Shown: piece after piece, positions 1,237 to 53,300 of the stretch
Position numbering within the stretch: position 1 is the first letter of the stretch
Layout of the letters: every line of letters begins with the position of its first letter
Source of the DNA: Rhodocyclaceae bacterium
Lineage (GTDB): Bacteria > Pseudomonadota > Gammaproteobacteria > Burkholderiales > Rhodocyclaceae
NCBI GenBank assembly: GCA_013388985.1
Contig: JACAEF010000027.1
Span: 1-53,641, forward strand
Reading direction: 5' to 3'
Length of the DNA stretch: 53,641 nt
Program-made: the position numbers and the translations under genes
Notes under the pieces: generated by a model
Seen by the model: only the letters and a program-made list of their open reading frames with translations
Told to the model about the DNA's origin: nothing
The model's database searches: none

Positions 1237-3204
1237 TCAGATGACGGGCGGGTTGAGAAACGGCAGACGGTGACGGACGCTGTCCATCACCGCTGCCACG
1301 GCTTCGTCGATGTTCAAGTTCGTGGTATCCACGAGATCGGCATCGGGCAATCGTTTCAAGGGTGCGACGGGTCTTGCGGCATCGCGGGCATCCCGTTCTT
1401 CGAGATCCTTCACGATGTCTTGCAAAAGGGGACGCATGTTATCAGGCATTCCCTTCCCGATCAACTGCTTATAACGCCTTTCGGCGCGCGCCGGCGCAGA
1501 AGCGGTCAAAAACACCTTGACCGGGGCATCCGGGAACACGACCGAGCCCATGTCGCGGCCATCCGCGACCAGGCCCGGAAAGCGGCGGAAGGCGCGCTGG
1601 CGGTCGAGCAACGCTGCGCGCACGGCAGGGAAAGCGGCGATTTTCGAGGCCCCCTTGCCCACCTCCTCGCTGCGGATCGCCTCGGTAACGTCTTCTTCGG
1701 AAAGGAATATCCTGTCGCCCTGGAATGCCGCCGGCAGCTTCGCGGCGATCGCCGCCACACGATTCTCGTCGTCGAGCGAAACGCCCGCTTTCATCGCCGC
1801 CAGCGCCGTCAGCCGGTAGAGCGCGCCGCTGTCGAGGAAATGGAAGCCCAGTGCCTTGGCCACCCGCTGCGCCACCGTGCCCTTGCCGGAAGCCGACGGG
1901 CCGTCGATCGCGATCACCGGCGCGGCGATCTGCGCGAAGACATCGAAATAATGCGGAAAGGTCTTGGCGACGCAGCCGGGGTCGTTGATGCGCACCGGCA
2001 CGCCGCCGAAGGCCGCGAGCGAGAAGCACATCGCCATGCGATGATCGTCGTAGGTGTCGATTTCAGCGTTTGCCTGCAAAGTCGGCGTTGGCAGGACGGC
2101 AAGCCAGTCACTCCCCTCCTCCACCGTCGCGCCGAGCTTGCGCAGTTCGGTCGCCATCGCCGCGATGCGGTCGGTTTCCTTGACGCGCCAGGAGCCGATG
2201 TTGCGCAGGACGCATTTCCCGTCGGCGAACAGCGCGGCCACCGCCAGCGTCATCGCCGCATCCGGGATGTGGTTGAGGTCGAGATCGAAGGCTTTCAGCC
2301 TGCCCGCCGGCGCCGAAGCCTCGATGAAGTTGTCGCCCCAGACGATCCTGGCGCCCATCGTTTCCAGCGCGTCGGCAAACTTCACGTCGCCCTGGATGCT
2401 GTTCTTCCCCACCCCCTCGACACGCACCGGCCCGCCGCCGATCGCGCCCGCGGCAAGGAAATAGGAGGCTGCCGACGCATCGCCCTCGACATGCAGCACG
2501 CCGGGGCTCTTGTAGCGCTGTCCCCCGGGAATCGCGAAGCGCTGCCAGCCCTCGCGCTCGACGCGCACGCCGAAGCGCGCCATCAGGTTCAGCGTGATCT
2601 CGATGTAGGGTTTGGAGATGAGTTCAGTGGTCAGCTCGATGATGGCCTTCTCGCCGGTGAGTGGCAAGGCCATCAGCAGCGCGGTGAGGAACTGCGAGGA
2701 GACATCGCCGCGCACCCGGATCGGCGCGGACAAATTGACCTGCGCGGGGAATATTTCCAGCGGCGGGAAACCTGCGTTGCCCGTGTAGCGCACATCGCAG
2801 CCGATCTGGCGCAAACCATCGACGAGGTCGCCGATCGGCCGCTCGTGCATGCGCGCAACGCCGGAGAGCCTGTAATGCCCGCCGGAGAGCGCCAGCGCGG
2901 CAGTCAGCGGCCGGATCGCCGTGCCGGCGTTGCCCATGAACAACTCGCCCTGCTTGACCGGGAAGACGCCGCCTGCGCCCCGCACTTTCCAGCAGTTCGC
3001 GCCCTGCGCCTCCAGCCCGATGCCCAGTGCCGCCAAGGCCGAGAGCATCACGCGCGTGTCATCCGAATCGAGCAGATCGCGGATCTCGGTGACGCCCTCG
3101 GCCAGCGCGGCCAGAAGCAGCATGCGGTTGGAGATGCTCTTCGAGCCCGGCAGCCTCACCGTGCCGGCGGCGCGCAACAAAGGCGGGAGATCGAAATGAG
3201 TCAT
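1237..3204 (-). CDS. aroA-cmk: Fused EPSP synthase / cytidylate kinase
   Basis: The 655-residue product joins two enzymes. Residues 1 to about 427 are 3-phosphoshikimate 1-carboxyvinyltransferase (EPSP synthase, shikimate pathway), with PGSKSISNR near the N-terminus and [15 protein letters not shown] near the end of the domain. Residues from about 429 are CMP kinase, with the P-loop GPSASGKGT (about 435-443), the substrate motif DSGALYR, and [15 protein letters not shown]. There is almost no linker: the AroA end FDVFAQIAA runs straight into PVIAIDGP. Separate aroA and cmk genes are usual; this fusion is known in some betaproteobacteria. It is the penultimate gene seen in the supraoperon. The segment AVLPTPTLQ at 2078-2102 is encoded by a copy of the dispersed 25-bp repeat. 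No clear Shine-Dalgarno site precedes the ATG. Confidence 0.96.
2078..2102 (+). repeat. 25-bp dispersed repeat, copy 1 (inside aroA)
   Basis: The core GTCGGCGTTGGCAGGACGGC at 2081-2100 matches the consensus at 18 of 20 positions. In the aroA frame it encodes AVLPTPT, just before the TYDDHR motif, in a stretch whose length is close to that of E. coli AroA. Confidence 0.85.
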
Positions 3205-3262
3205 ACAGGAAAATCAGAAAATCAGCATGGGGAAATAATGGCAACGCCGGCCAGCACCGATG

Positions 3263-3287
3263 CTGCCGTCCCGCCCGCGCCGACTTT
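3263..3287 (-). repeat. 25-bp dispersed repeat, copy 2 (between Uma2 gene and aroA)
   Basis: Reverse-orientation copy with core at 3265-3284, one mismatch to the consensus (GCCCGCGCC instead of GCCAGCGCC). Its AAAG end adjoins the stop codon (3287-3289) of the Uma2-family gene. Confidence 0.85.
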
Positions 3288-3871: not shown

Positions 3872-3911
3872 GCGCGTCTCCATTGTCATGACGTGGGAAA
3901 TGATAGCCCTG

Positions 3912-7025: not shown

Positions 7026-8103
7026 GGCGGCGTTCGAACTCCTTCATGAAGGCGACCAGCGCCTGCACACCCTTGAGCGGCATCGCGTTGTAGATCGAGG
7101 CACGCATGCCGCCGACCGATTTGTGGCCCTTGAGCTGCAGCAGTCCGGCCGCCTTCGCGCCTTCGAGGAAGGCCTCGTTGAGCGATTCGTCGCGCAGGAA
7201 GAAGGGCACGTTCATGCGCGAGCGGAAAGGCTTCTCGACCTTGGTGAGATAAAAATCGGTCGAGTCGAGATAGCCGTAGAGCAGCTCGGCCTTGGCGATG
7301 TTGCGCCGTTCGATCTCGGCCAAGCCCCCCTGGCGCTTGAGCCACTGGAACACCAGCCCGGCAATGTAGATCGCATAGGTCGGCGGGGTGTTGTACATCG
7401 AGCCGTTCGCTGCCACGGTCTTGTATTCGAAGGCCGAGGGGCACAGCGGCGAAGCGCGGTCGAGCAGGTCGTCGCGCACGATGACCAGCGTCAGGCCGGC
7501 CGGGCCGATGTTCTTCTGCGCACCGCCGAAGATCAGGCCGTAACGGGACACCTCGACCGGCCGCGAGAGGATGTTCGACGACATGTCGGCGACGATCGGC
7601 ACGCCGGCCGGCGCCTCGGGGAGATCGAACATCTCGACGCCGTCGATGGTTTCGTTGCTGCAGAGAAACAGGTAGGCGGGATCGGCGGAATACCGAAAAC
7701 TCGGCGCTGGCGGGACGGCATGCCAAGGCCCGGAAAGCGAACCGGCGGCCAGATGCGGCGCGCAGTACTTCTTCGCCTCCTTGAACGACTTGGCCGACCA
7801 GGACCCGGTGACGACGTAGTCGGCCGTCGCCCTGCCGCCGAGCAGGTTGAGCGGGACGATCGCGTTCTCGGCGATCGCCCCGCCCTGCATGAACAGGATC
7901 TTGTAATTCGCCGGCACAGCGAGCAGCTCGCGCAGGTCGGCCTCGGCCTGCTGGATGATCTGCGTGAATTCCTTGCCGCGATGGCTCATCTCCATCACCG
8001 ACATGCCCGAACCGTGCCAGTCGAGCATTTCCTCGGCGGCCTGGCGCAGCACTTCCTCGGGCAGCGTCGCCGGCCCGGCGCTGAAGTTGTAGGGGCGCGC
8101 CAT
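7018..8103 (-). CDS. serC: Phosphoserine aminotransferase
   Basis: SerC (361 residues) converts 3-phosphohydroxypyruvate to phosphoserine, and its homologue substrate in PLP synthesis. The N-terminus [19 protein letters not shown] is diagnostic, and the PLP lysine lies in [13 protein letters not shown] chose the ATG at 8103, which has GAGGAG five bases upstream, over a GTG at 8109 that would overlap gyrA. It begins 2 bp after the gyrA stop and overlaps pheA by 8 bp. The stretch [18 protein letters not shown] is encoded by a dispersed repeat copy, yet keeps the family spacing to the [10 protein letters not shown] motif. Confidence 0.97.
7697..7721 (+). repeat. 25-bp dispersed repeat, copy 4 (inside serC)
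   Basis: The core at 7700-7719 differs from the consensus only at its first base. In the serC frame it reads AVPPAPSF. Confidence 0.9.
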
Positions 8104-8105
8104 GA

Positions 8106-10649
<2,544 letters not shown>

Positions 10650-13602: not shown

Positions 13603-15714
13603 TCAGCCTCCCACTCCCGCCGCCTCGCGGCGGCGGTGGCTGAGGATCGCCGGCAAGGCCAGCGCCACGAGCAAGCCGCCCGCCAGCAGCAGCGGCCAGA
13701 ACACCGGCCGGTTCCATTGCGCGCGCAGCCTTTCCCGCAGCGCCACGTCGATGCGCTGATATTTCAGCGTGTTGTTGCCGACCTTGGTCGGCTTGCGATT
13801 CAGGAGCCAGGCGTGGCGCAGGCTGTAATCCTTGGGGTGGAAGCCCCACACCCACGGCGCGTCCTCGTGCAGGATCGCCAGCATGCGGTCGATGATGGCT
13901 TGCCGTTCGGGGCCGTTCTCCATCGCGCGCATGCGCTCGAAGAGGCGGTCGTATTCCGGATTGGTGTAGTTCGCGGCATTCTCGCCGCCATGCCTGACCT
14001 TGCCCTGCGGGCCGTAGAGCAGGAACAGGAAATTCTCCGGATCCGGGTAATCGGCATTCCAGCCGAAATAGAACAGCTGCACCGCCCCCTTGCGCACTTT
14101 CTCCTGGAAGCGGTTGTAATCGGTGCTGCGCACCACCAGCTGTACGCCGATCTTCTGGAATTGCTTGTTCAGCCAGTCGATGCGGGTTTTCGCGCCGACG
14201 CCGGTCGCCGTGGTATCGAGATTGATGACCAAGGGCTCACCCGTCTTGGCATTGCGGCCGTCCGGCCAGCCGGCTTCCGCGAGCAGCCGGCGCGCCACCG
14301 CGATGTCCTTGCGGCGCGGGCCCGCGTCGGTCCAGTCATAGACCACGGGATTGATGCCGGCCTGCCCTTCGCGGTAGCCGAAGATGCCGGGCGGGAGCGG
14401 ACTCATCGCCGGAATGCCGCGGCCGTTCTGGAAGATCGAGATGAACTCTTCCTGATCGATGGCGATCGAGATCGCCTGGCGGATCTTCCGGGCGGCAGCG
14501 CTGTCGCCGCCGACCAGCGGATCGAGCATGTTGAAACCCATGTAGAACGTCGAGGTGGCCACCGAGGTCGTCAGACGGATGCCCTGCGCCTGCATTTCGG
14601 GCGTCAGCGAAACCTCTCCACCCGCGCCGACCTGCACCGCCTGGTCGAAGGAATCGGAAGCAATGCCGGAGGCGTCGTAGTAGCCTTGCAGGAACTTGTT
14701 CCAGTAGGGAATCTGCTCCTTCTCGCGTGTGAATACCGCCTTGTCGATGAACGGCAGCGGCTTGCCGCAGTCGGCGAGCAGCCCTTCCCCCTCGTCTTCC
14801 GGCTCGCCCTCGCAGGGATAGGTTTCACCGCGAAAATACGGGTTGCGCTCCAGCACCATGCGCGCGTTCGGATTGTTCTCGGTCAGCATGTAGGGGCCGG
14901 TGCCGATCGGATACCAGTCGAGGGTGAGATTTTTCTCCGCCATGCCCGGCTGGCTGTGGAAGCGGTCGGCCTCCCAGGGCATCGGCGCGAAAAAGGGCAT
15001 CGTCAGCCAGTAGAGAAATTGCGGATATTTGCCCTTGATGCGGATGCGATAACGGTAACGGTCGAGAGCCTCGACGCCGGACAACGACCATGCGCGTAAA
15101 TCGAGCCAGCCGTGCCGTTCCGCCAGCGCCGATTTTTGCAGCTCGTCGGCCAATTCCTTCAGACCGACGATGTATTCGCCCATCAGGCCGAGGATCGGCG
15201 AATGCAGATGCGGATGGGCGAGCCGCTTGATCGCATAGACGTAATCGTCCGCCACCAGCTCGCGCGTGCCGCGGTTCGGGAAGTCGGCGAGCGTGTGGAA
15301 GGCGGAGATGTCGGCCGGCTGCTCGGCGAAGGCCGGATGCGGCTGGTAGCGGATACCCGGCTTGATCTCGATGACATAGTCGGTGTAAGCGATCCGCGCA
15401 GCATCGGCATCGGCCGGCAACGGCCGGCCCTGCGCATCGAGATAGCGGGGTTGCGGCACGGCCACCGCCGTCGCGGGGATCAGCTCATAGGGGCGCTTCA
15501 GGTAGTGATATTGCAGCGGCGGCTCATAAATCTGCGCGGTGAACGTGATCTCGTCCTCGCTGTAGGACTGCACCGGGTCGAGATGCTTCGGCCGCTCGGT
15601 GAATGCGCTATAGAGGATATTCTGCCCGCGCTCGGCCGCCGGATAGGGGTCGTTCCAGACGGCGCCACAGGCGCCGAGCAGAAAACTTGCCGACAGGATC
15701 AACAGTCGCCGCAT
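13603..15714 (-). CDS. Family 5 (peptide-type) solute-binding lipoprotein with C-terminal membrane anchor
   Basis: The 703-residue protein is an ABC-type extracellular solute-binding protein of the oligopeptide class (SBP family 5). It starts with a lipoprotein signal (LILSASFLLGAC, lipobox Cys at about residue 16). The binding domain includes FTERPKHLDPVQSYSEDE, YEPPLQYHYLKRPYELIP and WYPIGTGPYMLTENNPNARM. A hydrophobic helix closes the protein (PVFWPLLLAGGLLVALALPAIL) followed by basic residues. Having both a lipid anchor and a C-terminal membrane helix is unusual. No permease or ATPase gene is adjacent. A dispersed repeat copy encodes QKSALAERHG. The substrate is unknown. Confidence 0.85.
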   Translation of the reverse strand: MRRLLILSASFLLGACGAVWNDPYPAAERGQNILYSAFTERPKHLDPVQSYSEDEITFTAQIYEPPLQYHYLKRPYELIPATAVAVPQPRYLDAQGRPLPADADAARIAYTDYVIEIKPGIRYQPHPAFAEQPADISAFHTLADFPNRGTRELVADDYVYAIKRLAHPHLHSPILGLMGEYIVGLKELADELQKSALAERHGWLDLRAWSLSGVEALDRYRYRIRIKGKYPQFLYWLTMPFFAPMPWEADRFHSQPGMAEKNLTLDWYPIGTGPYMLTENNPNARMVLERNPYFRGETYPCEGEPEDEGEGLLADCGKPLPFIDKAVFTREKEQIPYWNKFLQGYYDASGIASDSFDQAVQVGAGGEVSLTPEMQAQGIRLTTSVATSTFYMGFNMLDPLVGGDSAAARKIRQAISIAIDQEEFISIFQNGRGIPAMSPLPPGIFGYREGQAGINPVVYDWTDAGPRRKDIAVARRLLAEAGWPDGRNAKTGEPLVINLDTTATGVGAKTRIDWLNKQFQKIGVQLVVRSTDYNRFQEKVRKGAVQLFYFGWNADYPDPENFLFLLYGPQGKVRHGGENAANYTNPEYDRLFERMRAMENGPERQAIIDRMLAILHEDAPWVWGFHPKDYSLRHAWLLNRKPTKVGNNTLKYQRIDVALRERLRAQWNRPVFWPLLLAGGLLVALALPAILSHRRREAAGVGG
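15112..15136 (-). repeat. 25-bp dispersed repeat, copy 6 (inside solute-binding gene)
   Basis: The core GCCGTTCCGCCAGCGCCGAT at 15114-15133 has two mismatches to the consensus. In the gene frame it reads KSALAERH. Confidence 0.8.
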
Positions 15715-16604: not shown

Positions 16605-16629
16605 GTGCCGTTCCACCAGCGCCGACTTC
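16605..16629 (-). repeat. 25-bp dispersed repeat, copy 7 (fabI-ppiD gap)
   Basis: The core GCCGTTCCACCAGCGCCGAC at 16607-16626 has two mismatches to the consensus. It sits between convergent stops, three bases from the ppiD stop codon. Confidence 0.85.
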
Positions 16630-21810: not shown

Positions 21811-21835
21811 AATTCCCCGCTGCCAGCCCCATAAT
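21807..21835 (+). promoter_or_regulatory. Promoter of the tmRNA gene
   Basis: TTGAAA (21807-21812), exactly 17 bp, and CATAAT (21830-21835). The predicted start is near 21842. The -35 box overlaps the queD stop codon. Confidence 0.7.
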
Positions 21836-21841
21836 GGCGAC

Positions 21842-22105: not shown

Positions 22106-22110
22106 AGCCG

Positions 22111-22848: not shown

Positions 22849-22873
22849 AAAGTCGGCGCTGGCGGGACGGCAC
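22849..22873 (+). repeat. 25-bp dispersed repeat, copy 8 (intergenic, exact core)
   Basis: Exact core GTCGGCGCTGGCGGGACGGC at 22852-22871, flanked by AAA and AC. It lies in the 251-bp gap between the small gene and acs. Confidence 0.95.
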
Positions 22874-27288: not shown

Positions 27289-27313
27289 GTGCCGTCCCGC
27301 CAGCGCCGACTTT
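27289..27313 (-). repeat. 25-bp dispersed repeat, copy 9 (fumarase-murI gap, exact core)
   Basis: Exact core in reverse orientation at 27291-27310. It starts two bases after the fumarase stop and ends 12 bases before the murI ATG, so it supplies most of the 39-bp gap. Confidence 0.95.
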
Positions 27314-32177: not shown

Positions 32178-34673
32178 TCAATCCTCACGCAAGCGCTCGA
32201 TGACGCCCCCGGAAAAAGCGCGGCGCGAAGCGATCATCCCAAACACGGCAATGCCGACCAGCCCGGCGACGAAGCCGATCATCAGCGTCTGTCCGCCCGG
32301 CAGGTATTCGAGCCGGAAGACCTGTTGCGCCAGAACGGTGGCGATCGCCGTCGCGCCCGCGCCCGCCAGCAAACCCGCGACACCGCCCTGCAGCGCGAAT
32401 TCGGCCAGCACGCCTTGTCGCAACTGACGCTTCTGCCCGCCCAGGGCACGCATCACGGCCAGCTCGTGGCTGCGCGCGCCGCTGCTCGCCTCGATCGCCG
32501 CATACAGCACCGCGAGGCCGGCGAGCAGCGCAAAGAGGAACACCAGTTGCACCGCCTGGATCACCTGCCCGACCGTCTCCTGCAACTGCCTGACCAGCTC
32601 GGCCACGTCGATCACGGTGACGTTCGGGAAGGTTCGCACTACTTCCCGGATGAAGGCTTCGCGGCCGGGAGGAAGATGGAAGCTGGTGATGTAGCTGGTC
32701 GGCTGTCCGTCGAGCGTGCCCTGCGGCGCGATGACGAAGAAGTTGACGCGCATAGAATCCCAGTCGAGCTTGCGCAGCGACGTCACCGCTCCGCTCATGC
32801 GCTGGCCGGCGACCTCGAAAGTGAGCTCATCCGCCAGTTTCAATCCGAGCGTCTCGGCCAGTCCCTGCTCCACCGAGAACTGCAGCGCCGAAGCAGCCGC
32901 GAACCATCGGCCGGCGACGATCGCGTTGCCGGCCGGCAAATCGTCACGCTGCGAAAGGTTGAATTCGCGTTCGGCGAGACGCCGGGCGCGCTCGTCGGCA
33001 AAATCCTGCGGGCTGACCGTTCGGCCATTCACCGCCACCAGCCGGCCACGCACCATCGGCTCCAGGCGCGGTGCGGGCAAACCGGCACGCGTGAAGAATT
33101 CGCCGAGCGCCGCACGCTGCTCGGGCTGGATGTTGATCAGGAAGCGGTTCGGCGCATCGGGCGGCAGTTTCGTTTGCCAGGCGGCGAGCAGGTCGTTTTT
33201 CACCAGCGAGAGCAGCATCAGGGTGGTCAAACCGAGTGCGAGCGCGACGGTCTGAACCAGCACGGCATTGCGATGGCGACGCAGGCTGGCAATGCCGATG
33301 CGCCAGCCGCCCGAAATGAAACGAGCCGCGAGGCGCACGACGCCTTCCAGCAGCAGCCGCCCCGCCAGCGCGTAGAGCACGACTGCCGCCAGGAAGCCGC
33401 CGAGCACCACGCCGGCGAGCCGAGCTTCGCCGGCCATCCAGAACATCAGCCCGGCAAGGCAGCACGCGCCGGCGAGATAGGACAGCCACGACAGGGGCGC
33501 CACTTCTCCCCATTCGCGACGCAGCACGCGCAAGCTGGGTACCGACTTGAGACGCAGCAAGGGCGGAAAGACGAAGCCGACCAGCAGCACGGCGCTGACG
33601 GCGATGCCATGCAGCCAAGGCAGCATGCCGGGTGCCGGCAGGCGTTCGGCGAGCAGTCCCGCGAGCAGGCCGTGCAAGGCTTCCTGCGCCAGCAGGCCGC
33701 AGAGGCCGCCGACGAGGGTGGCGAGGCCGCCCAGCACGACGAATTCGCCGCCGTGGATCAGCAAGAGCTGCCGCTCGCTGGCGCCGAAGACGCGCATCAC
33801 CGCGCAGGCATCGAGATGCCTTTGCATGAAGCGGCGCGCGGCCATGCCCACCGCGATCGTCGCCAGCACCACCGTCAGCAGCGCCGCGAGCCGCAGGAAG
33901 CGTTCGGAGCGCTCGATGATGACGCGCACCTCGGGGCGCGCATTGTCGAGGGCTTCGAGCCTCTCGCCGCGCCCAAGTCGCGTCTGCGCCCAGGCGCGGA
34001 ACGCGGACACGGCTTTCTCCTCTCCCGCGACGTGCAATCGCCAGGTGATACGGCTGCCGGGCTGGATCAAGCCGGTGGCGGCCAAGTCGTCGAGAGGAAT
34101 GATCAGACGCGGCGCGAAGGCGAACGGATTGATGCCGCGCTCCGGATCGAGCGTCAGGATGCCGCTGACGGTCGCCGTCAGCGCGCCGACGCGCAGCCTT
34201 GCCCCGGGCGTCAGCGCCAGCATGCCGGCGAGCCGCTCGTCCGGCCAAACGGTGCCCGAGGGCGGCAGGGGTGCCGTCCCGCCAGCGCCGACTTTGGCCG
34301 CCTGCTCCACCTGCAAGGCGCCGCGCAAGGGATAGCCGGCGGAAACCGCCTTGATCTCCGCGAGCTGCACGCCGCCCGCGTCATCCAGGCTGCCGACCAT
34401 CGAGAGCAGCAATGCGCTCTCGGCAAGGCGCAAGCCATGCTGTCGCGCGGCCTCGCGCCAGGCATCCGGCCAGGGATGGTCGGCGGAGAGCAGCAAATCC
34501 CCGCCGAGCAGTTGATGCGCCTCGCGCTCGACGGCATGGCGCACGCGATCGGCGAGAAAAGCCACGCTGGTGAGCGCCGCGACCGCGAGCACGAGGGCGA
34601 CGAACACCACCGTCAGCTCGCCGGCGCGTAGATCGCGCGCGAGCATGCGCAGCATCAGGCGCAGCGTGCTCAC
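32178..34673 (-). CDS. FtsX-like ABC transporter permease
   Basis: The 831-residue protein is a large ABC permease of the YbbP type. It starts VSTLRLMLRMLARDLRAGEL from a GTG that overlaps the radA stop by 4 bp (GTGA), so translation is coupled. A first helix (ELTVVFVALVLAVAALTSVAFLAD) precedes a large periplasmic region. Two FtsX cores follow, each with several helices, the last near LAVLYAAIEASSGARSHELAVMRALGGQK. The YbbA-like ATPase is not adjacent. A dispersed repeat copy encodes [10 protein letters not shown] in the first periplasmic domain. Confidence 0.88.
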   Translation of the reverse strand: MSTLRLMLRMLARDLRAGELTVVFVALVLAVAALTSVAFLADRVRHAVEREAHQLLGGDLLLSADHPWPDAWREAARQHGLRLAESALLLSMVGSLDDAGGVQLAEIKAVSAGYPLRGALQVEQAAKVGAGGTAPLPPSGTVWPDERLAGMLALTPGARLRVGALTATVSGILTLDPERGINPFAFAPRLIIPLDDLAATGLIQPGSRITWRLHVAGEEKAVSAFRAWAQTRLGRGERLEALDNARPEVRVIIERSERFLRLAALLTVVLATIAVGMAARRFMQRHLDACAVMRVFGASERQLLLIHGGEFVVLGGLATLVGGLCGLLAQEALHGLLAGLLAERLPAPGMLPWLHGIAVSAVLLVGFVFPPLLRLKSVPSLRVLRREWGEVAPLSWLSYLAGACCLAGLMFWMAGEARLAGVVLGGFLAAVVLYALAGRLLLEGVVRLAARFISGGWRIGIASLRRHRNAVLVQTVALALGLTTLMLLSLVKNDLLAAWQTKLPPDAPNRFLINIQPEQRAALGEFFTRAGLPAPRLEPMVRGRLVAVNGRTVSPQDFADERARRLAEREFNLSQRDDLPAGNAIVAGRWFAAASALQFSVEQGLAETLGLKLADELTFEVAGQRMSGAVTSLRKLDWDSMRVNFFVIAPQGTLDGQPTSYITSFHLPPGREAFIREVVRTFPNVTVIDVAELVRQLQETVGQVIQAVQLVFLFALLAGLAVLYAAIEASSGARSHELAVMRALGGQKRQLRQGVLAEFALQGGVAGLLAGAGATAIATVLAQQVFRLEYLPGGQTLMIGFVAGLVGIAVFGMIASRRAFSGGVIERLRED
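34271..34295 (-). repeat. 25-bp dispersed repeat, copy 10 (inside ABC permease, exact core)
   Basis: Exact core in reverse orientation at 34273-34292. In the gene frame it encodes KVGAGGTAP in the periplasmic domain. Confidence 0.95.
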
Positions 34674-36050: not shown

Positions 36051-37115
36051 TCACTCCCGCTCGATCACCGGCACCCGCGAAGAGAGCGCGCAAAAGAGTT
36101 CATACGAAATCGTGCCGGCCGCGGCCGCGACTTCATCGGCCGACAGCCCCTCGCCCCACAAGGTCACCGTGTCGCCCACGCCACAGGCGCTGCCGGTCAG
36201 ATCGACGCACAGCTTGTCCATCGACACGCGACCGAGCGTGCGCGTGCGCCGGCCCGCCACCAGCACCGGCGTGCCGGTGCCCGCATGGCGGGGGTAACCG
36301 TCGGCATAGCCGCAAGCGACCACGCCGACCCGCATCGGCCGCTCGGCGGTGAAGGTGCAGCCATAGCCGACACTCTCGCCCGCGGCGAGTTCCTGCACGG
36401 CGACGATCTCGCTTTGCAGGGTCATGACGGGCTTGAGACCGAGTTCGGCGGCGGAGACCTCGGCAAACGGCGAGCCGCCATAGAGCATGATGCCCGGCCG
36501 TCCCCAGTCCCCGATGTGCTCGGCAAAGCGCAGGATCGTCGCCGAATTGCCGAGCGAGGTTTCCTCGTCCATGCCGGACGTCATCGCCCGGAAACGCTCG
36601 AGCTGCCAGTCGATGCCGCGCGGCCCGTCGGCGTCGGCGAAATGCGTCATCAGCACACAGCCGATGTGCCGTGCCGTCAGCGCCGACTTTGCGGCCGCGA
36701 GGCCCGACGCATCGAAGCCGAGGCGGTTCATGCCGGTGTTGAGCTTCAGATACACCGGCAGCCCGGCCGGCCAGTCCGCGGCCAGCAGCCAGTCGAGCTG
36801 CTCGCGGCGATGGATCGCCGGTATCAATCGATGGCGGATGAACAGCGGCACTTCGTCGGCCGAGTAGCAGCCTTCCAGCATCAGGATCGGCTTCGTCAAG
36901 CCCGCCTCGCGCAACGCGATCGCGCGTTCGAGCTCGATCAACGCAAAGCCGTCGGCCACCTCGCACAAGGCCCGCACGACGCGCTGCAGGCCGTGGCCGT
37001 AGGCATTCGCCTTGACGACCGCCCACAACCGCGCCCGCCCGGCATGTTGGCGGGCGATGGCGAAGTTGTGCCGCAGGGCGGCCAGATCGATGATGGCGCG
37101 GATCGGGCGCGGCAT
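36051..37115 (-). CDS. alr: Alanine racemase
   Basis: Alr (354 residues) makes D-alanine for the cell wall. The PLP lysine is Lys35 in AVVKANAYGHG; the catalytic tyrosine lies in ESVGYGCTFTAERPMRVGVVACGYADGYPR. GRVSMDKLCVDL and MTHFADAD are family motifs. The segment AKSALTARHIGCV is encoded by a truncated dispersed repeat. It stops 1 bp before radA, an arrangement common in proteobacteria. The LysR gene begins upstream on the same strand with 10 bp between them. Confidence 0.96.
   Translation of the reverse strand: MPRPIRAIIDLAALRHNFAIARQHAGRARLWAVVKANAYGHGLQRVVRALCEVADGFALIELERAIALREAGLTKPILMLEGCYSADEVPLFIRHRLIPAIHRREQLDWLLAADWPAGLPVYLKLNTGMNRLGFDASGLAAAKSALTARHIGCVLMTHFADADGPRGIDWQLERFRAMTSGMDEETSLGNSATILRFAEHIGDWGRPGIMLYGGSPFAEVSAAELGLKPVMTLQSEIVAVQELAAGESVGYGCTFTAERPMRVGVVACGYADGYPRHAGTGTPVLVAGRRTRTLGRVSMDKLCVDLTGSACGVGDTVTLWGEGLSADEVAAAAGTISYELFCALSSRVPVIERE
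36671..36690 (-). repeat. 25-bp dispersed repeat, copy 11 (alr, lacks five central bases)
   Basis: GTGCCGT and CAGCGCCGACTTT match the consensus perfectly at both ends but CCCGC is missing between them. In alr it reads AKSALTARH. Confidence 0.75.
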
Positions 37116-42507: not shown

Positions 42508-44896
42508 CCTTTTCGAAGCCGTCCCGCCTCCTCCCCCTGCCGTCCCCAATGAGATGGGCGAGCCGCCCAATGGCGACTCGCGTGCGCCGACTTTCGCGGA
42601 GGGCGAAGCCCTGCCGCTGGACGCCTACGCCGAGCGCGCCTATCTCGCCTACGCGATGAGCGTGGTGAAATCGCGCGCCCTGCCGCAGGTCGAGGATGGC
42701 CTGAAGCCCGTGCAGCGCCGCATCCTCTACGCGATGAACGAGATGCGGCTCGCGGCATCCGCGAAGCACGTCAAGAGCGCGCGCGTGGTCGGCGACGTGA
42801 TCGGCAAGTTCCATCCGCACGGTGACGCGAGCGTCTATGACGCGATGGTGCGCGTCGCGCAGGATTTTTCGCTGCGCTACCCGCTCGTCGACGGCCAGGG
42901 CAACTTCGGCTCGCGCGACGGCGACGCGGCGGCGGCGATGCGCTACACCGAATGCCGCCTGACACCCATCGCCGAACTGCTGCTCTCGGAAATCGACCGT
43001 GGCACGGTCGACTTCGTGCCGAACTACGACGGCACGATGCAGGAGCCCGCCCGCCTGCCCGCGCGGCTCCCCTTCGTGCTCTTGAACGGCGCCTCGGGGA
43101 TCGCGGTGGGCATGGCCACCGAGATTCCGCCGCACAACCTCTGCGAGGTGGCCGAGGCGCTCAAGCTCCTGATCAAGAAGCCCCACGCCTCGCTCGACGA
43201 GGTGATGGCCGTGCTGCCCGGGCCGGACTTTCCCGGCGGCGGCCAGATCATCTCCGCGCCCGAGGACCTTCGCGCAGCATACGAGACTGGCCGCGGCAGC
43301 CTCCGCATGCGAGCCCGCTGGCGCGTCGAGGAGCTGGCGCGCGGCCAGTGGCGCGTGATCGTCTACGAACTGCCGCACGGCGTGTCGACCGCGCAGGTGC
43401 TCTCGGAGATCGAGGCGATCACCAATCCGCAACCGCGCCCCGGCAAGAAGGATGTCTCCCAAGAGCAGAAAAACCTCAAGCAGGCGATGCTCGCCGTGCT
43501 CGACGCGGTGCGCGACGAATCGAACGAAAAGGAGCCCGTGCGCATCGTGCTCGAGCCGCGCACCTCCAGGGTGCCGCTGGACGAATTCATGGCCGTCCTG
43601 CTCGCGCGCACCAGCCTCGAAACCAACGTGCCGGTGAACTTCACGATGATCGGCCTCGACGGCCGGCCGGCGCAAAAGCCACTCATGGCGATGCTTTCCG
43701 AATGGCTGCGCTTCCGCCACGCCACCGTCGAACGTCGCAGCCGGCATCGCCTCGCCGAAGTCGAGCGGCGCCTGCACATCCTCGCCGGCCGCATGCTCGC
43801 CTTCCTGTCCATCGACAAGATCATCGAGACCATCCGCGAGGCCGACGAGCCGAAGGCCGAGCTGATAGCGAAGTTCAAGCTCTCGGAGATCCAGGCCGAG
43901 GACATTCTGGAGATCCGTCTGCGCCAGCTCGCCCGCCTGGAGGGCATCAAGATCGAGCAGGAGCAGAAGGCGCTCGAAGCGGAAGCCAAAGACCTGCGCC
44001 GCGTGCTCGAAGACCCGAAAGAGCTCACCAAACTCGTGCTCAAGGAAATCGCCGAGGACGCGAAGAAATATGGCGACGCGCGCCGCACGCTGATCGAGGC
44101 CGTCGCGCCGGTCACGCCCGCCGAGGTGGCGATCCCTGACGAGCCGGTGACGGTGATCGTCTCGAAGAACGGCTGGGTGCGCACCCGCCAGGGGCATGGG
44201 CTAGACCCGGCCAGCATCGGCTACAAGACCGGCGATTTCCCCTTCCTCGTCGCCGAATCGCGCACCGTCTGGCCGCTGGTCGTCATCGACACGAACGGCC
44301 GCGCCTACAGCGTGCGCGTCGCCGATCTGCCCGGCGGGCGCGGCGACGGCGTGCCGATCACGACGCTGGTCGATTTCCAGGATGGCGGCAAGCTGGCCCA
44401 AGCGATCACCGACGCGCCGGAAGCGCAGTATCTGTTCGCCAACTCCGGCGGCTACGGCTTCGTCGCGCGCATCGCCGATCTGGTTTCCAGGCAGCGCGCC
44501 GGCAAGGCGTTCATGACCCTGGAAAAAGGCGAAAAACCCATCGCACCGGCCAAAGTCGGCGCTGGCGGGACGGCAGCAGCCGGATCCGCCGCCAATATGG
44601 GGACTGCAGCAGCGATCTCCACCAGCGGCCGCCTGCTGCTCTTCCCGCTCGCCGAGGTCAAGACGATGGCCAAGGGGCGCGGCACGATCCTGCAGGCGCT
44701 CGACGCCAAGGACGAAATGGTCGCGGTCGCGGTCGGCACTGACGCTTTTGTCGTCACCGGCATCGGGCGCGGCGGCAAGCCCGCCGAGTGGCGGCTCGCC
44801 GGCAAGGAAGCCGACGCCTACCGCGCCGCCCGCGCGCGCAAGGGGCATCCGCTCCCCGTCCGCATGAAACCGGCCGGCCTAACGCCGCATCGCTGA
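42488..44896 (+). CDS. parC: DNA topoisomerase IV subunit A
   Basis: ParC (802 residues) cleaves DNA in topoisomerase IV. The catalytic tyrosine is in [12 protein letters not shown], and the segment [18 protein letters not shown] has Ala and Asp at the E. coli Ser80 and Glu84 positions, a variation common in betaproteobacteria. An N-terminal extension of about 45 residues (Pro-rich, [20 protein letters not shown]) precedes the domain and carries split repeat halves. A second copy encodes [16 protein letters not shown] in the C-terminal domain. It overlaps vapC by 20 bp. Its last residues LTPHR come from structured element copy B. Confidence 0.96.
42584..42597 (-). repeat. 25-bp dispersed repeat, copy 12 (parC N-terminus, split)
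   Basis: GCGCCGACTTTCG (42584-42596) matches one half. The other half, GCCGTCCCGCC, lies at 42518-42528, so the two halves are 55 bases apart. The right half reads RAPTFAE. Confidence 0.5.
44552..44576 (+). repeat. 25-bp dispersed repeat, copy 13 (inside parC, exact core)
   Basis: Exact core at 44555-44574. In parC it reads AKVGAGGTA, in a linker of the C-terminal domain. Confidence 0.95.
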
Positions 44897-46843: not shown

Positions 46844-49800
46844 CACGCCACTCCTCCGTCGAGGAAGTTTTCGATTTCGGCGAGCGTCGGCCGGGCGAAG
46901 AACACGCCCTCACTGCTGCCAGGTTTCATGCCGCGCAGGAAGAGATAGAACACGCCGCCGAAAGCCGTCTCCCAGTCGCTGTGCGGTTCGCGCAAAGCGA
47001 GCGCGCGTTTGAGCGCCGCCGCGTAGATGCGGAGCTGCAGGTCGTAGCGATGAAAGCGCATCGCCTCGACGAGGGACGCGGGGCCGTAATCCTCCAGCGC
47101 GTTCGATTTCCAGTCGATAATGTACCAGCGCCCATGGGCCTCAAACACCAGATCGATGAAGCCCTTCATGTAGCCCGCTTGGCCCGCCGGAGAATCCAGC
47201 GGGAAAGTGAATTCCATCTCCGCGATGCGCGCCGCAGCAGGGATGTCGGCGAGCCGGAACCCCGCCGGAGCGAGCGGCGTGGCGAGCACGTCCTCCACCA
47301 GCCGTTCGAGCGCCGGCTGCCACGCCGGGGCATAGCCGTATTCGGCGAGCACCGCGGCAGCAATTGGGCCGGCCGTCTGTGGGCGCTGGAAATCGATGCG
47401 CTCGAACAGCGCGTGCAGGCAGCTGCCGGCGCGCGCGCCGCGGGGGAACTGCCGGATATCGTCGAAAGTCGGCGCTGACGGAATGTGGGACGTCCCGCCG
47501 GGCGCCACCTCGCTTCGGAAAGTCGGCGCTGGCGGGACGGCACCCCACGGCATGAGGGCATCGTGGTCGGCGCTTTGCGCCTCTTCCGCCAGACGCGCGG
47601 CGAGCGAGGAGAAGCTCTTCACCTGCCAGGGCGGCGGAATCCGCCCGACGAACCGCCGCGCCTGCCATTCGGGGCGTTCGGCTTCGACGGGTAGAGAGCC
47701 GACGCCGTCCGTCGGCAGCGGCAGCACTCTCAGCGCGCCGCCAAGCTGAGCTTCGAGCTCGCGCAATGCCCCGCTTTCATCGTTCGACTCCAGCCACTGC
47801 GCCAGCCACTCACGGGGATCGCCGTCCACCGCCTCGCGCGGGCCGAACAGCAGCCAGGCGAGCGGCGAGCGCGCGCAGTTGTTCGTCTTGCCCCAGATCA
47901 CGACGCAGCGATGCTCGGCGCGCGTCAGCGCGACATAGGCCAGACGCAATTCCTCGGCCGCGGCCTCGCGTTCCGCCACGCGGGCGAGCGCCTGCGCCTC
48001 GGGCGAGCCGAAATCGAGCAGCGCCGCGCCGTCCCGGTGGGCGAGCAGCGGCCAGTCGTTCTTTTCCTCGGGCCCGAGCCAGAGGAAGGGGCAATAGACG
48101 ATCGGGTATTGCAGCCCCTTCGCCGCGTGCTGCGTGACGATGCGCACCAGATCGGCGTCGCTTTCCAGCCGCAACAGGCTCTCCTCGCTTTCGGGGGCCG
48201 ATCGCTGGTCGGCAATGTGACGGGCGAGCCCCTCGGCATCGAGTGCCGCCTGGTGTTCCGCCGCCTGCAAGAGCTCGGCCAGATGGCGGTAGTTGGTCAG
48301 CCGCCGTTCGCCGTCGGGACGTCTGATCACGCGCGCCACGACGTTCTCGCGGCGCAGCAGACGGCGCCACATCGCCATGAAGCCGCGCTCACGCAGCAGC
48401 AGGCCATCGTCGTGGAAGCGCTCCAGCCGCTCGCTCCAAGCGAGATCATCCTCGCGCCAAGCGGCAAGCTGCGCGGCGTCGACGCCGAGCAGCACGGTCG
48501 CCAGCGCCGCGCGCACCAGCGCCTCGCGCGACGGTTGCGCCACCGCGAGCAAGAAGCGCTCGATCTCTTCCGCCTCCTCGCTCGCCCAGACGCTGCCGCC
48601 CCCGCCGCTGACCGAAGGAATGCCGCGCCGCTTCAACGCCTCGCGCACGAGGTCGCCCTCGTGGTGCTTGCGCACCAGCACCGCGATATCGCCGCCGCTC
48701 AAGCGCCGCTCGCCGAGCTTTGCCCGATCCTCGGCGGCGAGCTTCAAGAGCCGCGCGATGTCGCTGGCGACCGCCTCCGCCGCCATCGCATGGGCGAGCT
48801 CCTTGGTGAAGCTCTTGGCCGCCGCCGGCTTTTCCATCGTCCACAGCGTGAGCGGCGCGCCGTCATCTTCGATCACGCAAGGCGTGCGCTCGGCCTCGGC
48901 CGCACGCGCGGGCTCATAAGGCAGATCGTCGAGCAGGAAGGGCAGCGGCCGGGCGAACAGCGCATTCAGCGCCTCGAGCAAGGGCTTGTCGGAGCGGCGG
49001 TTGTCGAGCAGCGCATGGATCGCATCGGCGCGCGCGCGCGCGGCGAGATAGGCGAACACGTCGGCGCCGCGAAAGGCGTAGATCGCTTGCTTCGGATCGC
49101 CGACGAAGATCAGCGGATGCGTCTCGCTGCCGAAGACGCGCGTGAAGATCGCAAGTTGCAGCGTATCGGTATCCTGGAACTCATCGATGAGCGCGATGCG
49201 GTAACGCGCGCGCAGGCTCTCGATCAGGCGGCCGCCCGCCGGCCCGTCGAGCGCCGCCGCAAGCGCGATGAGCAGGTCGTCGTAGCTTTGCAGGCCACTT
49301 TGCTGCTTGCGTTGCGCCAGTTGCACGCGCGCTTCGCCGAGGAATTCCGCGACGAGGCGACGCAAGGCCAGATCGCAGGCCGACTGGAAATGTTCGGCCA
49401 CCTGCCAGAGTTCCTCCATCGCAACGAAGAACGGAGACTCGGGCGCCGGGCTCTCCTTCGTGCGCCCCTGCTCGATCTTTTGCCGGGTCAGCAGAAAGAG
49501 TTCCTCCGGCAGAGGCAGGAGCGGCAGGTCTTCAGCAAACCAAGCCGTCGCCGTCGCCACCGCGCCGTCGATCTTCGCGGCGGGATAGATGTTGCGTTTG
49601 AGTCGCGCACGCTTGAGCCAGGCATGCAGCGCCGCCGCCTCGTTTTGCCAGAGCGCGCGTGCGTCCGCCCAGCTCGCCATGAGTTCGCGTTCGATGGCCA
49701 GGCGATCGACGGCTTCCGGCATGGCCACCTGCGCGCCGACACGCCCGAGATGATCCTTGACCCGAGCGACGAGCCCCCGCGGCCCCTGCAATGTGTCGAT

Positions 49801-50328
49801 CAGGAACTGTGCCCACAACGGCGTCGCCGCCGCCATCTGCTTGCGCCAGGCATCGCGCGCCACCTCGGCCAAGAGCTCGCTCTGGTCGGCGATCAGCTCA
49901 CGCTCGAACGGCTGGCCGGCGACGAAGGCCGCCTCCCCCAACGCGCGCTGGCAAAAGCCGTGGATCGTGAAGATCGCCGCCGTGTCGAAGCTCTCGATCG
50001 CCAGCCTGAGCCGGGCTTTCGCCTCGGTGACCTCATGGCGCCCGATCAGCGCCTGAAGATACTCATCCTGACTCGATCCGGTCTCGAAGGCGGCCAGGGC
50101 CTCGATGAGCCGCTTGCGGATGCGGCCCCTGAGCTCGCCGCTCGCCGCGCGGGTGTAGGTGACGACGAGGATCTGGCCGATCTCGATTTTCTCTTCGAGC
50201 AAGAGGCGCAGCATGAGCGCCGCCAGCGTCCAGGTCTTGCCGGTGCCGGCGCCGGCCTCGATCAGCCGCATGCCGCGCAATTCGACCTCCAAAGGCGATG
50301 TCAACGCCGTGGTGTGCCGTTCAGCCAT
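46843..50328 (-). CDS. recB: Exodeoxyribonuclease V beta subunit
   Basis: RecB (1161 residues) is the 3'-5' helicase-nuclease of RecBCD. Walker A is GAGTGKT (26-32), with VVTYTRAASGELRGRI, LIDEFQDTDTLQLAIFTRVF, LIFVGDPKQAIYAFRGAD, and VRIVTQHAAKGLQYPIVYCPF following. The C-terminal nuclease keeps the IIDWKSNAL motif and the upstream MKGFIDLVFEAHG aspartate. A linker before the nuclease carries two repeat copies reading AVPPAPTF and IPSAPTF. Its start codon and the recC stop lie inside another repeat copy, with an 8-bp overlap between the genes. Confidence 0.97.
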   Translation of the reverse strand: MAERHTTALTSPLEVELRGMRLIEAGAGTGKTWTLAALMLRLLLEEKIEIGQILVVTYTRAASGELRGRIRKRLIEALAAFETGSSQDEYLQALIGRHEVTEAKARLRLAIESFDTAAIFTIHGFCQRALGEAAFVAGQPFERELIADQSELLAEVARDAWRKQMAAATPLWAQFLIDTLQGPRGLVARVKDHLGRVGAQVAMPEAVDRLAIERELMASWADARALWQNEAAALHAWLKRARLKRNIYPAAKIDGAVATATAWFAEDLPLLPLPEELFLLTRQKIEQGRTKESPAPESPFFVAMEELWQVAEHFQSACDLALRRLVAEFLGEARVQLAQRKQQSGLQSYDDLLIALAAALDGPAGGRLIESLRARYRIALIDEFQDTDTLQLAIFTRVFGSETHPLIFVGDPKQAIYAFRGADVFAYLAARARADAIHALLDNRRSDKPLLEALNALFARPLPFLLDDLPYEPARAAEAERTPCVIEDDGAPLTLWTMEKPAAAKSFTKELAHAMAAEAVASDIARLLKLAAEDRAKLGERRLSGGDIAVLVRKHHEGDLVREALKRRGIPSVSGGGGSVWASEEAEEIERFLLAVAQPSREALVRAALATVLLGVDAAQLAAWREDDLAWSERLERFHDDGLLLRERGFMAMWRRLLRRENVVARVIRRPDGERRLTNYRHLAELLQAAEHQAALDAEGLARHIADQRSAPESEESLLRLESDADLVRIVTQHAAKGLQYPIVYCPFLWLGPEEKNDWPLLAHRDGAALLDFGSPEAQALARVAEREAAAEELRLAYVALTRAEHRCVVIWGKTNNCARSPLAWLLFGPREAVDGDPREWLAQWLESNDESGALRELEAQLGGALRVLPLPTDGVGSLPVEAERPEWQARRFVGRIPPPWQVKSFSSLAARLAEEAQSADHDALMPWGAVPPAPTFRSEVAPGGTSHIPSAPTFDDIRQFPRGARAGSCLHALFERIDFQRPQTAGPIAAAVLAEYGYAPAWQPALERLVEDVLATPLAPAGFRLADIPAAARIAEMEFTFPLDSPAGQAGYMKGFIDLVFEAHGRWYIIDWKSNALEDYGPASLVEAMRFHRYDLQLRIYAAALKRALALREPHSDWETAFGGVFYLFLRGMKPGSSEGVFFARPTLAEIENFLDGGVA
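47465..47489 (+). repeat. 25-bp dispersed repeat, copy 14 (recB linker, degenerate)
   Basis: AAAGTCGGCGCTGACGGAATG keeps the first half and then diverges. In recB it reads IPSAPTFDD. Confidence 0.65.
47519..47543 (+). repeat. 25-bp dispersed repeat, copy 15 (recB linker, exact core)
   Basis: Exact core at 47522-47541, in the same orientation as the degenerate copy 54 bases away (47465). In recB it reads WGAVPPAPTFR. Confidence 0.95.
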
Positions 50329-50338
50329 CGCCGACTTT
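50314..50338 (-). repeat. 25-bp dispersed repeat, copy 16 (recC-recB junction)
   Basis: The core GCCGTTCAGCCATCGCCGAC at 50316-50335 has four mismatches to the consensus. It contains both the recC stop (50323-50321) and the recB ATG (50328-50326). Confidence 0.65.
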
Positions 50339-53300
50339 CAATGCTTCGCGCAACGGCCCGAAGATCGCCATCGCCAGTCGCTGGAATTCCTCGCCCAGCG
50401 GGTCGTCCGTCCGGTCGCGCAAAAACAGCCGCACATAGGCATCGTCCCGCTCGCCTTTTCGGTCGCGGTAGGCATCGCCCTCCCAGGCCGGCTTCACGCT
50501 CTTGCCCGCCAGCCAGGCCCAGGCGGTTTCGGGATAGAACGGCAGAGGGCTTTTCACTCCTTCGCGGTACCAGGCCAGCAGATCGTCGAGCAGCGCCTCT
50601 GCCCGCGCTACGGGGCCGAGCTGCAGGGTCGCATCCCGCGCGATCAGGATGCTCGTCGGCTGCACTCCTTCGGGCTTCGCCACGTTGAGCAGCAGATGAT
50701 CGATCCACAGCCGCAGCCTGTCTTGCGCACGCATCCGGCCATGCCGCACCCGCCACAGCCCCCGCTCGGTCAGCCCCTCGATCCGTCCCGTGAGCCGCAC
50801 GCCGTGGGCGGCGTAGTCGATCTCGACGCTTTCGATCGTCCGCGCCGCGAGCCACGGCTGCGCCGTTTGCCAGAGACCCAACGCCTCCTGTCGCGCCCGC
50901 CGCGAGATGAGATCGCCCGCGACACCGCTCGGCAACTCGCCGCGCGCGCGGAGCCAGGCTTGCGCTTCCTCCGGCGCCAGGCCACCTTGCAGTGCGGAGA
51001 ATTGCGCCTCGCGCAAGTGGTAGCGTTCCCGCGCGTCGGGCACGAAGAGTTCGTGAATTTCCAGCAGCGCCTCGCGTTCTTCCAGATGGAGACCCAAGCG
51101 CTCGCGCAGGAAGTATTTGAGCGGATGGGCAAAGAAGCGCTGCAGCGCTGCGAGATCCACCTCTACGTTTTCGGGCACCTCGAGCGCCATCTCCACATGC
51201 AGGAAGGCCGGCGCGGCCCGTGGTGCGGCCGGCGGGCAATGCTCCTCGTCGTAGCTGAACAGGGGGTTGTCTTGCCCGTTGAAATAGGCAGTGGCGAAAG
51301 GCTGCAAGGGATGATGCACGACCACCTCTTCGGCCGACCTGCCGGTCATCGCGGCGACGACGTCGATCAGCTCGGCCAGCGGCGGCGCCGGCGGCAAGGC
51401 GAGATTGCTGCGCGGATCGTGCCCGGTGTAGGTGACGATCAGCGCATCGCCCGCGCACAGCAGCATTTCCAGGAAGGCGTAACGCTCCTCGCCGCGCAAA
51501 TTGCGATCCCCCGGACGCGGATGGGCCGAGAGCAGATCGAACGCCGGGATCGTCCGCGGACGCGGCCAAGCACCGTCGTTCATGCCGACGAGGCAGACGA
51601 CGCGCGCCGCGACCGGGCGTCCCGGCTGCAGGGCGGCGATCGTCGCGCTGCCGGACATGAACGCCTGCGCCGGCGCCTGCGCGGCCAGGCGCCGGTCGAG
51701 CTCGCGCAGCAGCACCGCCAGCGGCAGCCGGGTGGTGCAGCGGGCGGTCGCGGCCCTTTCCCCGATCTGCCGCAGGGCTTCGCGCAGCCGCTGCGCCTGC
51801 GCCTCTTCTGTCTCGTCCGGGGCGAGGCAGCGCTCGAACGTTTCACTCAGCAACGCGCACCATTCGGGTGCCGTCTTGCCAGCGCCGAGTTTCGCATGCA
51901 GATCGAACAACACCTCGGCGAACTGCGCGAAACGCCCCAGCAGCGCCGCGCCTTCGCCTTCGATGCCCGGCACCGGCAACCGGCCCTGCCAGAGACGCTC
52001 CGGCGCATCCGGCAAAGCGACGCCGAGCAGCAGGCGTTCGAGGCCAACACGCCAGCCGAAGGCGTCATCTGCCGGCAGCCCGCGCCGTGCCCGCGTCGCG
52101 CCATCGATGCCCCAACGGATGCCGGCGGCCGCCACCCAGTCACGCAGGCGGGGCAAATCCTCATCGCCGATCTCGAAGGCGCGGGAGAGCGCCGGCTCTT
52201 CCAGCAAAGCGAGCACGCTTTCGGCATCGAGATCGCCCGCGGCGACGACACACAATTGCCGCAATGCCCGCCACAGCGGCAGCGCGGCCAGCGGCCGGTC
52301 GGCCACCGTGCAGGGCAGCCGCCGTGTTCGCGGCGCGTTTTCCAGAACCGCGGCGACGATCGGGCCGTAGGTCTCGACGTCGGGGGTCAGGATCAGGATG
52401 TCGGCCGGCTCCAGATCCGGCAGGCGCTCGAAAAGCTCGAGCAGACGGTCGTGCAGCACTTCCGCCTCGCGCTGTGCGCCATGACAGGCGTGTATCTGCA
52501 ACGTGGCGTCGGGCGAGGCCGTGCTCGTCGTCAATTCGAGGATGTCGCGTTGCAGGGTTCCCAGCAAGGTGGTGGCAGGCAGGACGAATTCTTCGTCTTC
52601 CCGGCACGCCGCCTGTGCTACCGCATCGGCGAGGCGCACCACCGCATGCTGGCGCGCACGTCCCAGTGAGGCGAGCAGCGGATGACCGCTCTCATAGAGC
52701 ATCGCCGCCTCCGGCCGTTCGATCTTGAGACGCAGGCGCTCGCGCAAGCGTTCGATATCGCCCCAGTATTCGCGGCAGGGCGCCAGCACGAATACATGCA
52801 CGTCGATCCAGGCTGCGAGGGCGACGAACACCTCCCAGTAGAGCGCCGGCATCGCCTCGACGCAGAACAGCGAAAGGCGGCGCGGCAGCCTCGCTCGTGC
52901 CTCAGGGTGCTCGCGCAAGGTCGCCAGGAAGCGCTCGCGCGGGTGCTCCGCCGCCACCTCGGGCAAAGCGTCGAGCAGTGCGCGCCACAGAGCGGCCTGC
53001 CAGGACTCGTCCGGCCCAAGTCCGAGCCGACGAGCTGCGCTCCAGGCCGCGAGCCAGTCCGGCCGCTCGACCAGGTAGCGGTCGAACAGGCTGGCGAGCT
53101 GTTGCGCCAGTTCGAACTGCCGCGTGCCGTCGTCGTTCTCGAGGTAATGATGGATCTCTGTCGCGTGGCTCTCGCCGAGCAGCCGCAACAAGTGCCACTG
53201 CATCGTTTCGCGGTCGAACGGATTGTGTGCCGCCACGTCCGGCAGGACACTGCCAAAAAGTTGCCAGACGTAAGCCGCCGGGAAGGCAGCGCGCACTTGG

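Follow-up and report, generated by a model that had tools for sequence, protein, structure and literature searches.

The word AAAnTCGGCGCTGGCGnnACGGC(A/G)C, asymmetric, sharply bounded and 23–25 letters long, recurs along the 53,641 bases of contig JACAEF010000027.1 of a Rhodocyclaceae bacterium that were analysed here (the window). It is real, clade-wide and maintained, and its genomic pattern resembles that of a DNA uptake sequence, a putative function here. Probably the word is such a sequence, a self-tag spread by biased uptake and recombination; Neisseria and Haemophilus select free DNA for uptake by tags of this kind. The observations are the word itself, its abundance, its distribution in the clade, its dialects, the mostly in-place origin of its copies, their even spacing and their lack of polarity.

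Matches to the 18-bp core TCGGCGCTGGCGGGACGG were counted with up to three mismatches on both strands of the whole window. There are 16 of them (6 plus, 10 minus); in 100 dinucleotide shuffles the mean was 0.52 and the maximum 3. Genome-wide, 2,896,965 bases contain 649 such core matches, as opposed to 18 for the reversed pattern. A first-pass annotation of this DNA had called the repeat too frequent for chance, and these counts bear it out; it had also named beforehand the lack of an excess outside the window as its refuting test, and an excess was found both genome-wide and clade-wide. The same annotation listed 17 copies. When the 23-bp word AAANTCGGCGCTGGCGNNACGGC was searched with up to 5 mismatches, 14 copies were found in the window at 0–2 mismatches (6 plus, 8 minus), together with two more at 4 mismatches (42572 and 47465), both of which open with an unaltered half-word, AAAGTCGGCGC. 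Two core matches, at 2299 and 33357, do not recur in the full-word search even with 5 mismatches allowed and are probably fortuitous; the real copies in the window therefore number about 14–16, and the figure of 17 probably includes chance matches, while the repeat as such stands. Six copies are exact over the 18-bp core (7701, 22853, 27292, 34274, 44556, and 47523). The five reported earlier are correct for the core with its preceding G, which is missing at 7701.

Below, the own genome is designated G000, the genomes of relatives carry G numbers, and individual loci carry L numbers. Sequence logos were built from 106 copies in 447,360 sampled own-genome bases (window included) and from 83 copies in 380,000 bases of G002. 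They are alike in the two genomes and consist of AAA, a loose base, TCGGCGCTGG, a looser CGGG, ACGGCA, and a weak C; both the loose positions (0 and 11–14) and the fixed positions are identical. At the edges of the own-genome copies, AAA is present at 87–92% on one side and C-A-C at 96, 90, and 74% on the other, and beyond that only background is seen. Since these flanks played no part in choosing the copies, AAA and CA(C) are independent support for the word. The consensus has no dyad symmetry by inspection, as had been stated at first pass.

The own-genome sample contains 51, 32, 13, 5, and 9 copies at 0–4 mismatches, respectively, whereas 12 shuffled patterns gave means of 0, 0, 0, 0.2, and 1.4, and the reversed pattern gave 0, 0, 0, 0, and 3. 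Given this mismatch spectrum, the copies are held near one consensus. The set of G002 is looser (8, 31, 27, 8, and 19 copies). In the 447,360 own-genome bases, all ten top 10-mers and all ten top 12-mers are pieces of the word; in the word counts of G002, a piece of the motif ranks first, amid another repeat family. This second over-represented family of G002 (L063–L081) is centred around CTAATGGACAATCTGGGTT, and GC-rich words such as GCCCGGCGGGAC, similar to the right half of the motif, can be noted there as well.

At up to two mismatches, 17 of the 18 same-genus relatives have 299–678 copies, and G019, from another genus, has 527. The same-genus genome G005 contains 2, and genomes from five other genera of the family contain 3–8. 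Among 300 genomes spread over the order, hundreds of copies were found in four (the own genome, two of the same genus, and G270), with 0–6 in the other 296. Protein neighbours place the group among beta-proteobacteria near Sulfuritalea, Sulfurisoma, and Rugosibacter; NCBI taxonomy assigns Sulfuritalea to Sterolibacteriaceae. Copies were present in 13 of 80 protein-neighbour loci, and each of the 13 records has 331–638 copies over its whole genome; they include the isolate Sulfurisoma sediminicola BSN1 (331) and metagenome-assembled genomes (MAGs) of Rugosibacter sp. (419) and Sulfuritalea sp. (586). Nine other records have 0–7 copies (two Methyloversatilis, Azonexus, Accumulibacter, Zoogloeaceae, Zeimonas, Pandoraea, Cupriavidus, and one uncultured Rhodocyclaceae). 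The record and genome sets overlap: G270 and the BSN1 record give the same counts, and L088/L089 duplicate G013/G010.

The base after ACGGC distinguishes dialects. All 14 window copies have A there, as does every copy sampled from G002, G013, and G017. In G009 and G010, from the same genus, all 9 copies have G, which most copies at Sulfuritalea-type loci have as well; several other loci are mixed. As for an alternative dialect in motif-free species, no dominant word was found in 142,307 bases of G005 or 80,000 bases of G021, and in 120,000 bases of G023 only words of ordinary interspersed-repeat look were detected. The latter include GGAGCGGCGGCC and GGTTGGGGTGAG (L178–L183). In a tree based on alr and radA of 68 loci (the duplicates L088/L089 and L109, which has no full gene pair, were left out), the bearers form three groups with motif-free lineages between them; one key node has a support of 65, many of the “motif-free” tips rest on one locus of 5–21 kb, and L107, marked motif-free, has a degenerate copy in alr. 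A putative single gain without loss or transfer is unsupported by these two genes.

The origin of the copies was analysed in 70 loci around the alanine racemase gene and in the window, which together contain 137 copies at up to four mismatches, 102 of them placed in predicted genes. Among 2399 pairs with an orthologue lacking the copy, 1760 have no gap at the site and 54 have a gap of at least 6 residues, while random windows are gapless in 93% of cases; these pairs are not independent, rest on copies at up to four mismatches, and include L088/L089. The sites are gappier than random windows, and so the copies sit in places tolerant of change. The count was repeated per copy with L088/L089 removed and copies restricted to up to two mismatches. 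At a protein identity of at least 70%, length-conserving orthologues are the majority class for 19 of 28 in-gene copies, and at least one exists for 21; a motif-sized gain (7–10 residues) occurs in 0 of 89 pairs, and two of the 28 copies lie at larger length changes. At 50% identity, the majority class is length-conserving for 16 of 38 copies, at least one such orthologue exists for 31, and a motif-sized gain occurs in 2 of 1170 pairs. In-gene copies mostly replace existing sequence, and most are not insertions; this test covers copies inside genes and reads point mutation and import by recombination alike. In alanine racemase, for example, a 20-residue stretch with the copy stands against VDLTDLPEKIGVAGKVTLWG.

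The alanine racemase gene contains a copy at up to four mismatches in all 23 motif-bearing loci (19 of them at up to three), and none was found in the eight motif-free loci even at five mismatches. The copy occupies one of two sites: around residue 142 in the sister species G000, G002, and G017, and near residues 308–314 in the other 20 loci, one of which reads 340, taken as an alignment-segment offset. The G017 gene has a 5-mismatch remnant at the second site.

One of the three roles proposed at first pass was a short mobile repeat, which would insert itself. Its sharp edges would fit, as would the few copies in alignment gaps (the 54 of 2399 pairs and 2 of 28 copies given above). However, the in-gene copy mostly replaces residues without length gain, near-forms such as KIGVAGKVT occur beside KVGAGGTAT in orthologue comparisons, and short gaps between copies are rarer than chance. 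We consider this role extremely unlikely.

The spacing was measured for 110 own-genome copies at up to four mismatches on six contig stretches. Its coefficient of variation is 0.73, against 0.96 ± 0.09 for random placement (P 0.001). Gaps shorter than 500 bp make up 4% instead of the expected 12%, and none is longer than 15 kb. The 93 copies in 19 evenly spread 20-kb pieces of G002 divide into 45 on the strand richer in G and 48 on its complement (p 0.84), so the word has no polarity against GC skew, as the first reading of the window had suggested. This bears on a Chi- or KOPS-like signal for recombination or replication. Chi and KOPS are polar with replication, and the word is much longer than Chi. 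The RecC-like gene in the window (50321–53470) implies that a Chi likely exists; but, apart from the lack of strand bias, determined in G002 only, the word is at background level in most relatives outside the clade, and a signal of this kind is very improbable.

From 57 to 61% of the copies lie inside predicted genes, on both strands, and the remainder is enriched in intergenic DNA. Intergenic and edge copies are dense where genes converge: in G000, there are 17 in 6,114 bases of convergent gaps versus 3 in 8,917 bases of divergent ones, and in G002, 12 in 3,354 versus 3 in 10,179. An inverted partner of at least 9 nt within 70 bp was found for 9 of 110 copies in G000 and 14 of 93 in G002, with a maximum of 11 nt and no chance control for these counts; no full inverted pair of the word was seen among the same 110 and 93 copies. 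In Neisseria, part of the uptake words form inverted pairs within terminators. The density in convergent gaps of both genomes and the scarcity in divergent ones could suggest a transcription terminator or RNA element. Against this, more than half of the copies are inside genes on either strand, few intergenic copies have such an inverted partner (2 of 35 in G000, 8 of 34 in G002), and the four Rfam matches of the window lie elsewhere, which leaves a terminator or RNA element scarcely any likelihood.

Near-exact copies also occur in small groups in genera outside the bearing clade, including some genomes of other families. In G058 (f35), copies on one strand (L460, 8186–14922) lie next to a phage-type integrase gene and a gene for an AAA protein of primase type; in G106, copies at 9117 and 17459 of L461 are near an efflux operon and a transposase; and a small group was seen on an 8,471-bp contig of an Azonexus MAG record (L463). 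In IMG/VR, at least 120 stretches match 19 specified bases exactly. A set of 80 IMG/VR loci (L340–L419; 719,346 bases) contains 123 copies at up to three mismatches, 43 beyond one per locus, and these extra copies amount to ~1 per 17 kb, which is sparser than in the hosts. A PHROGs check of four of the viral-collection loci found, among others, genes for tail fibres, RecT/RecE, and integrase. The phage-like contig L369, with tail-fibre genes, contains five exact copies at 883–2216; the first four are exactly 316 bp apart and represent a tandem array that includes the word. It is possible to explain the stray copies by transfer from the tagged group, assembly contamination, host flanks in viral contigs, or tag-carrying phages.

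Another explanation is that the word is the site of an intracellular DNA-binding protein organising, repairing, or segregating the chromosome, spaced evenly since the protein acts everywhere. This would agree with a long asymmetric two-block word, even spacing, presence in nearly all chromosomes of the genus, and lack of polarity, although matS-, parS-, and KOPS-type sites are regional or polar. However, one species of the genus and five other genera of the family are at background, so that such a system would have to be dispensable; a dialect change across many sites is not obviously expected either, nor is the presence of the word on phage-like contigs or, in another family, next to an integrase gene. 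A site of this type is rather unlikely. Among the roles named at first pass (uptake signal, nucleoid-protein site, and mobile repeat), the comparative evidence favours the uptake signal.

The check for competence genes that the first-pass annotation had proposed covered ComEC and pilins. ComEC was found in 38 of 41 genomes, bearers and non-bearers alike, including the own genome; it was not found in the bearer G018, which is 83% complete. N-methyl pilins gave 15 matches in the own genome and are present in 13 of 13 genomes searched. A minor pilin of the own genome, adjoining a FimT-like gene, is 88% identical to a G017 protein that matches Pfam ComP_DUS, and its counterparts in G005 and G019 match this family as well. 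The search for the ComP_DUS-type pilin covered the stretches around the FimT-like gene; all 13 bearers have it there, G011 with a weak match, as do 10 of 12 non-bearers, and it is divergent. In the receptor hunt, five pilins were each followed over 25–40 genomes. Two bearers, G003 and G270, gave no match to the MshC-like pilin, and the minor pilin like that of the type II secretion system has no full-length match in 10 of 18 same-genus bearers searched. For the FimT-like pilin and the orphan pilin, matches exist in bearers and non-bearers, and their identities overlap. For the ComP_DUS-type pilin, variation among bearers is as large as between the groups. An operon resembling type II secretion by eye, with several pilin-like genes, can be noted in L048 (12141–20000) and L211 (4383–14121); one of its minor pilins is present in some species of the genus and absent in others.

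For an uptake sequence, we infer surface recognition, preferential uptake, and drive. A competent cell binding free DNA would recognise the tag on chromosomal DNA at its surface, the likeliest reader being a protein at the tip of a type IV pilus; fragments with the tag would be preferentially taken up and then recombined into the homologous place of the chromosome. Alleles that by chance resemble the tag would be imported more often, and the tag would build up over time wherever the protein or the intergenic DNA tolerates it. Such accumulation would be a molecular drive, to which selection for exchange with relatives may or may not add. The nearly all-or-none presence among close species could mean that, once specific uptake is lost, the words fade.

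The word matches known uptake words in being near-identical and abundant, shared by relatives with dialects, of in-place origin, without polarity, and evenly spaced. Passages of PMC1939737 report that uptake words are in open reading frames in 65% (Haemophilus) and 35% (gonococcus) of cases, have no orientation bias, are evenly spaced per Karlin, originate by point mutation in permissive coding places, and form inverted repeats in ~10% of cases. A part of PMC2397512 argues that new neisserial DNA uptake sequences (DUS) often arrive by recombination rather than point mutation.

Several facts weigh against an uptake sequence. The copies are dense in convergent gaps, unlike the known words, which are not biased to places downstream of genes according to passages of PMC1939737; the same passages describe the spacing of known words as not even enough for a compaction site. 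In length, the word is about double the known uptake words, and its copies number hundreds, versus ~1900 in the 2.2–2.3 Mb of N. meningitidis. In-gene length conservation is the majority class in only 16 of 38 copies at 50% identity, with 12 more differing by 1–3 residues, and at 70% identity the copy sites are length-conserved in 62 of 89 pairs (70%) versus 91% of random windows. ComEC is also present in motif-free relatives, and none of the five pilins separates bearers from non-bearers or makes a convincing receptor. A shared 23-bp word implies that the receptor should be conserved among its users, which the ComP_DUS-type pilin is not.

The copies in the window are listed below; gene calls were made with a home-made codon-usage caller.

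Table 1. Full-word copies in the window and their predicted gene context.
Feature	Coordinates	Strand	Context
Copy, 2 mismatches	2078..2100	+	inside EPSP-synthase/cytidylate-kinase gene (1237-3180, minus)
Copy, 1 mismatch	3265..3287	-	predicted gene edge
Copy, 0 mismatches (AAAC variant)	7697..7719	+	inside predicted gene 7018-8109 (minus)
Copy, 2 mismatches	8731..8753	+	inside DNA gyrase/topoisomerase subunit A gene (8106-10649, minus)
Copy, 0 mismatches (AAAA variant)	15114..15136	-	inside solute-binding-protein gene (13603-15702, minus)
Copy, 2 mismatches	16607..16629	-	intergenic, convergent predicted genes either side
Copy, exact	22849..22871	+	intergenic
Copy, exact	27291..27313	-	intergenic, directly after fumarase gene
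Copy, exact	34273..34295	-	inside FtsX-permease gene (32178-34673, minus); read as KVGAGGTA
Copy, 1 mismatch	36668..36690	-	inside alanine racemase (36051-37115, minus), ~residue 142; read as AKSALTARH
Degenerate copy, 4 mismatches	42572..42594	-	
Copy, exact	44552..44574	+	inside predicted gene 42554-44896 (plus); read as KVGAGGTA
Degenerate tandem neighbour, 4 mismatches	47465..47487	+	54 bp ahead of next copy
Copy, exact	47519..47541	+	inside predicted gene 46843-50292 (minus)
Copy, 2 mismatches	50316..50338	-	overlaps 3' end of RecC-like gene
Copy, 1 mismatch	51870..51892	-	inside RecC-like gene (50321-53470, minus)

In addition, a tmRNA is located at 21793–22136 of the window; it matches the Rfam beta_tmRNA and permuted tmRNA families.

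The part of the 2025 paper PMC12616744 that covers this point names Neisseriaceae and Pasteurellaceae as the only families known for uptake words. In the open-access literature searched, no paper was found with the word in any of four spellings, nor one joining “DNA uptake sequence” and Rhodocyclaceae; the statement at first pass that no description was known thus held for this literature. It is likely that the beta-proteobacteria around Sulfuritalea, Sulfurisoma, and Rugosibacter, with a sister genus, represent a third bacterial lineage with its own self-tag for transformation, a two-block word of 23–25 bp with A/G dialects and a putative receptor; phages and integrative elements carry the word and may use it for uptake. 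If so, a third, environmental lineage would mean either that uptake specificity has evolved repeatedly or that it goes back further in beta-proteobacteria than supposed. It would also provide an independent case for weighing molecular drive against selection, with dialects inside one genus and a motif-free sister species. The word may serve as a fingerprint of DNA received from the bearing group.

Judged by its letters, the word is neither the neisserial DUS nor the pasteurellacean uptake signal sequence (USS) proper. REP/BIME and other short interspersed repeats are likewise dispersed and abundant; here, however, there is no dyad, over half of the copies are inside genes, and most arise without length gain. 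Chi and KOPS are also dense chromosomal words, and the difference is the lack of replication polarity here (G002). The USS of Pasteurellaceae (AAGTGCGGT / ACAAGCGGT) shows the same genomic behaviour, but the longest word shared with both USS types is 4 letters, and the word described here is GC-rich, longer, and beta-proteobacterial, whereas USS is gamma-proteobacterial; in the part of PMC12616744 covering it, the USS receptor is only predicted. The DUS of Neisseriaceae, ATGCCGTCTGAA, differs in its length of 10–12 bp and ~1900 copies, as opposed to 23–25 bp and hundreds, and in having a known receptor, ComP, where the receptor here is hypothetical. The longest stretch in common with the AT-DUS is the 7-mer TGCCGTC, which lies in the reverse complement of the A dialect, but since its probability in shuffles is ~0.02, homology is not claimed; the DUS inner core CTG lies outside the shared stretch. 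The dialect-variable base of the DUS (AT/AG-DUS) is at the same place as the A/G base here, which may be chance. Like the word, the DUS is the most abundant word of its genome, lies in genes and gaps, and has clade dialects, as described in a portion of PMC3630211, and its hosts are beta-proteobacteria as well.

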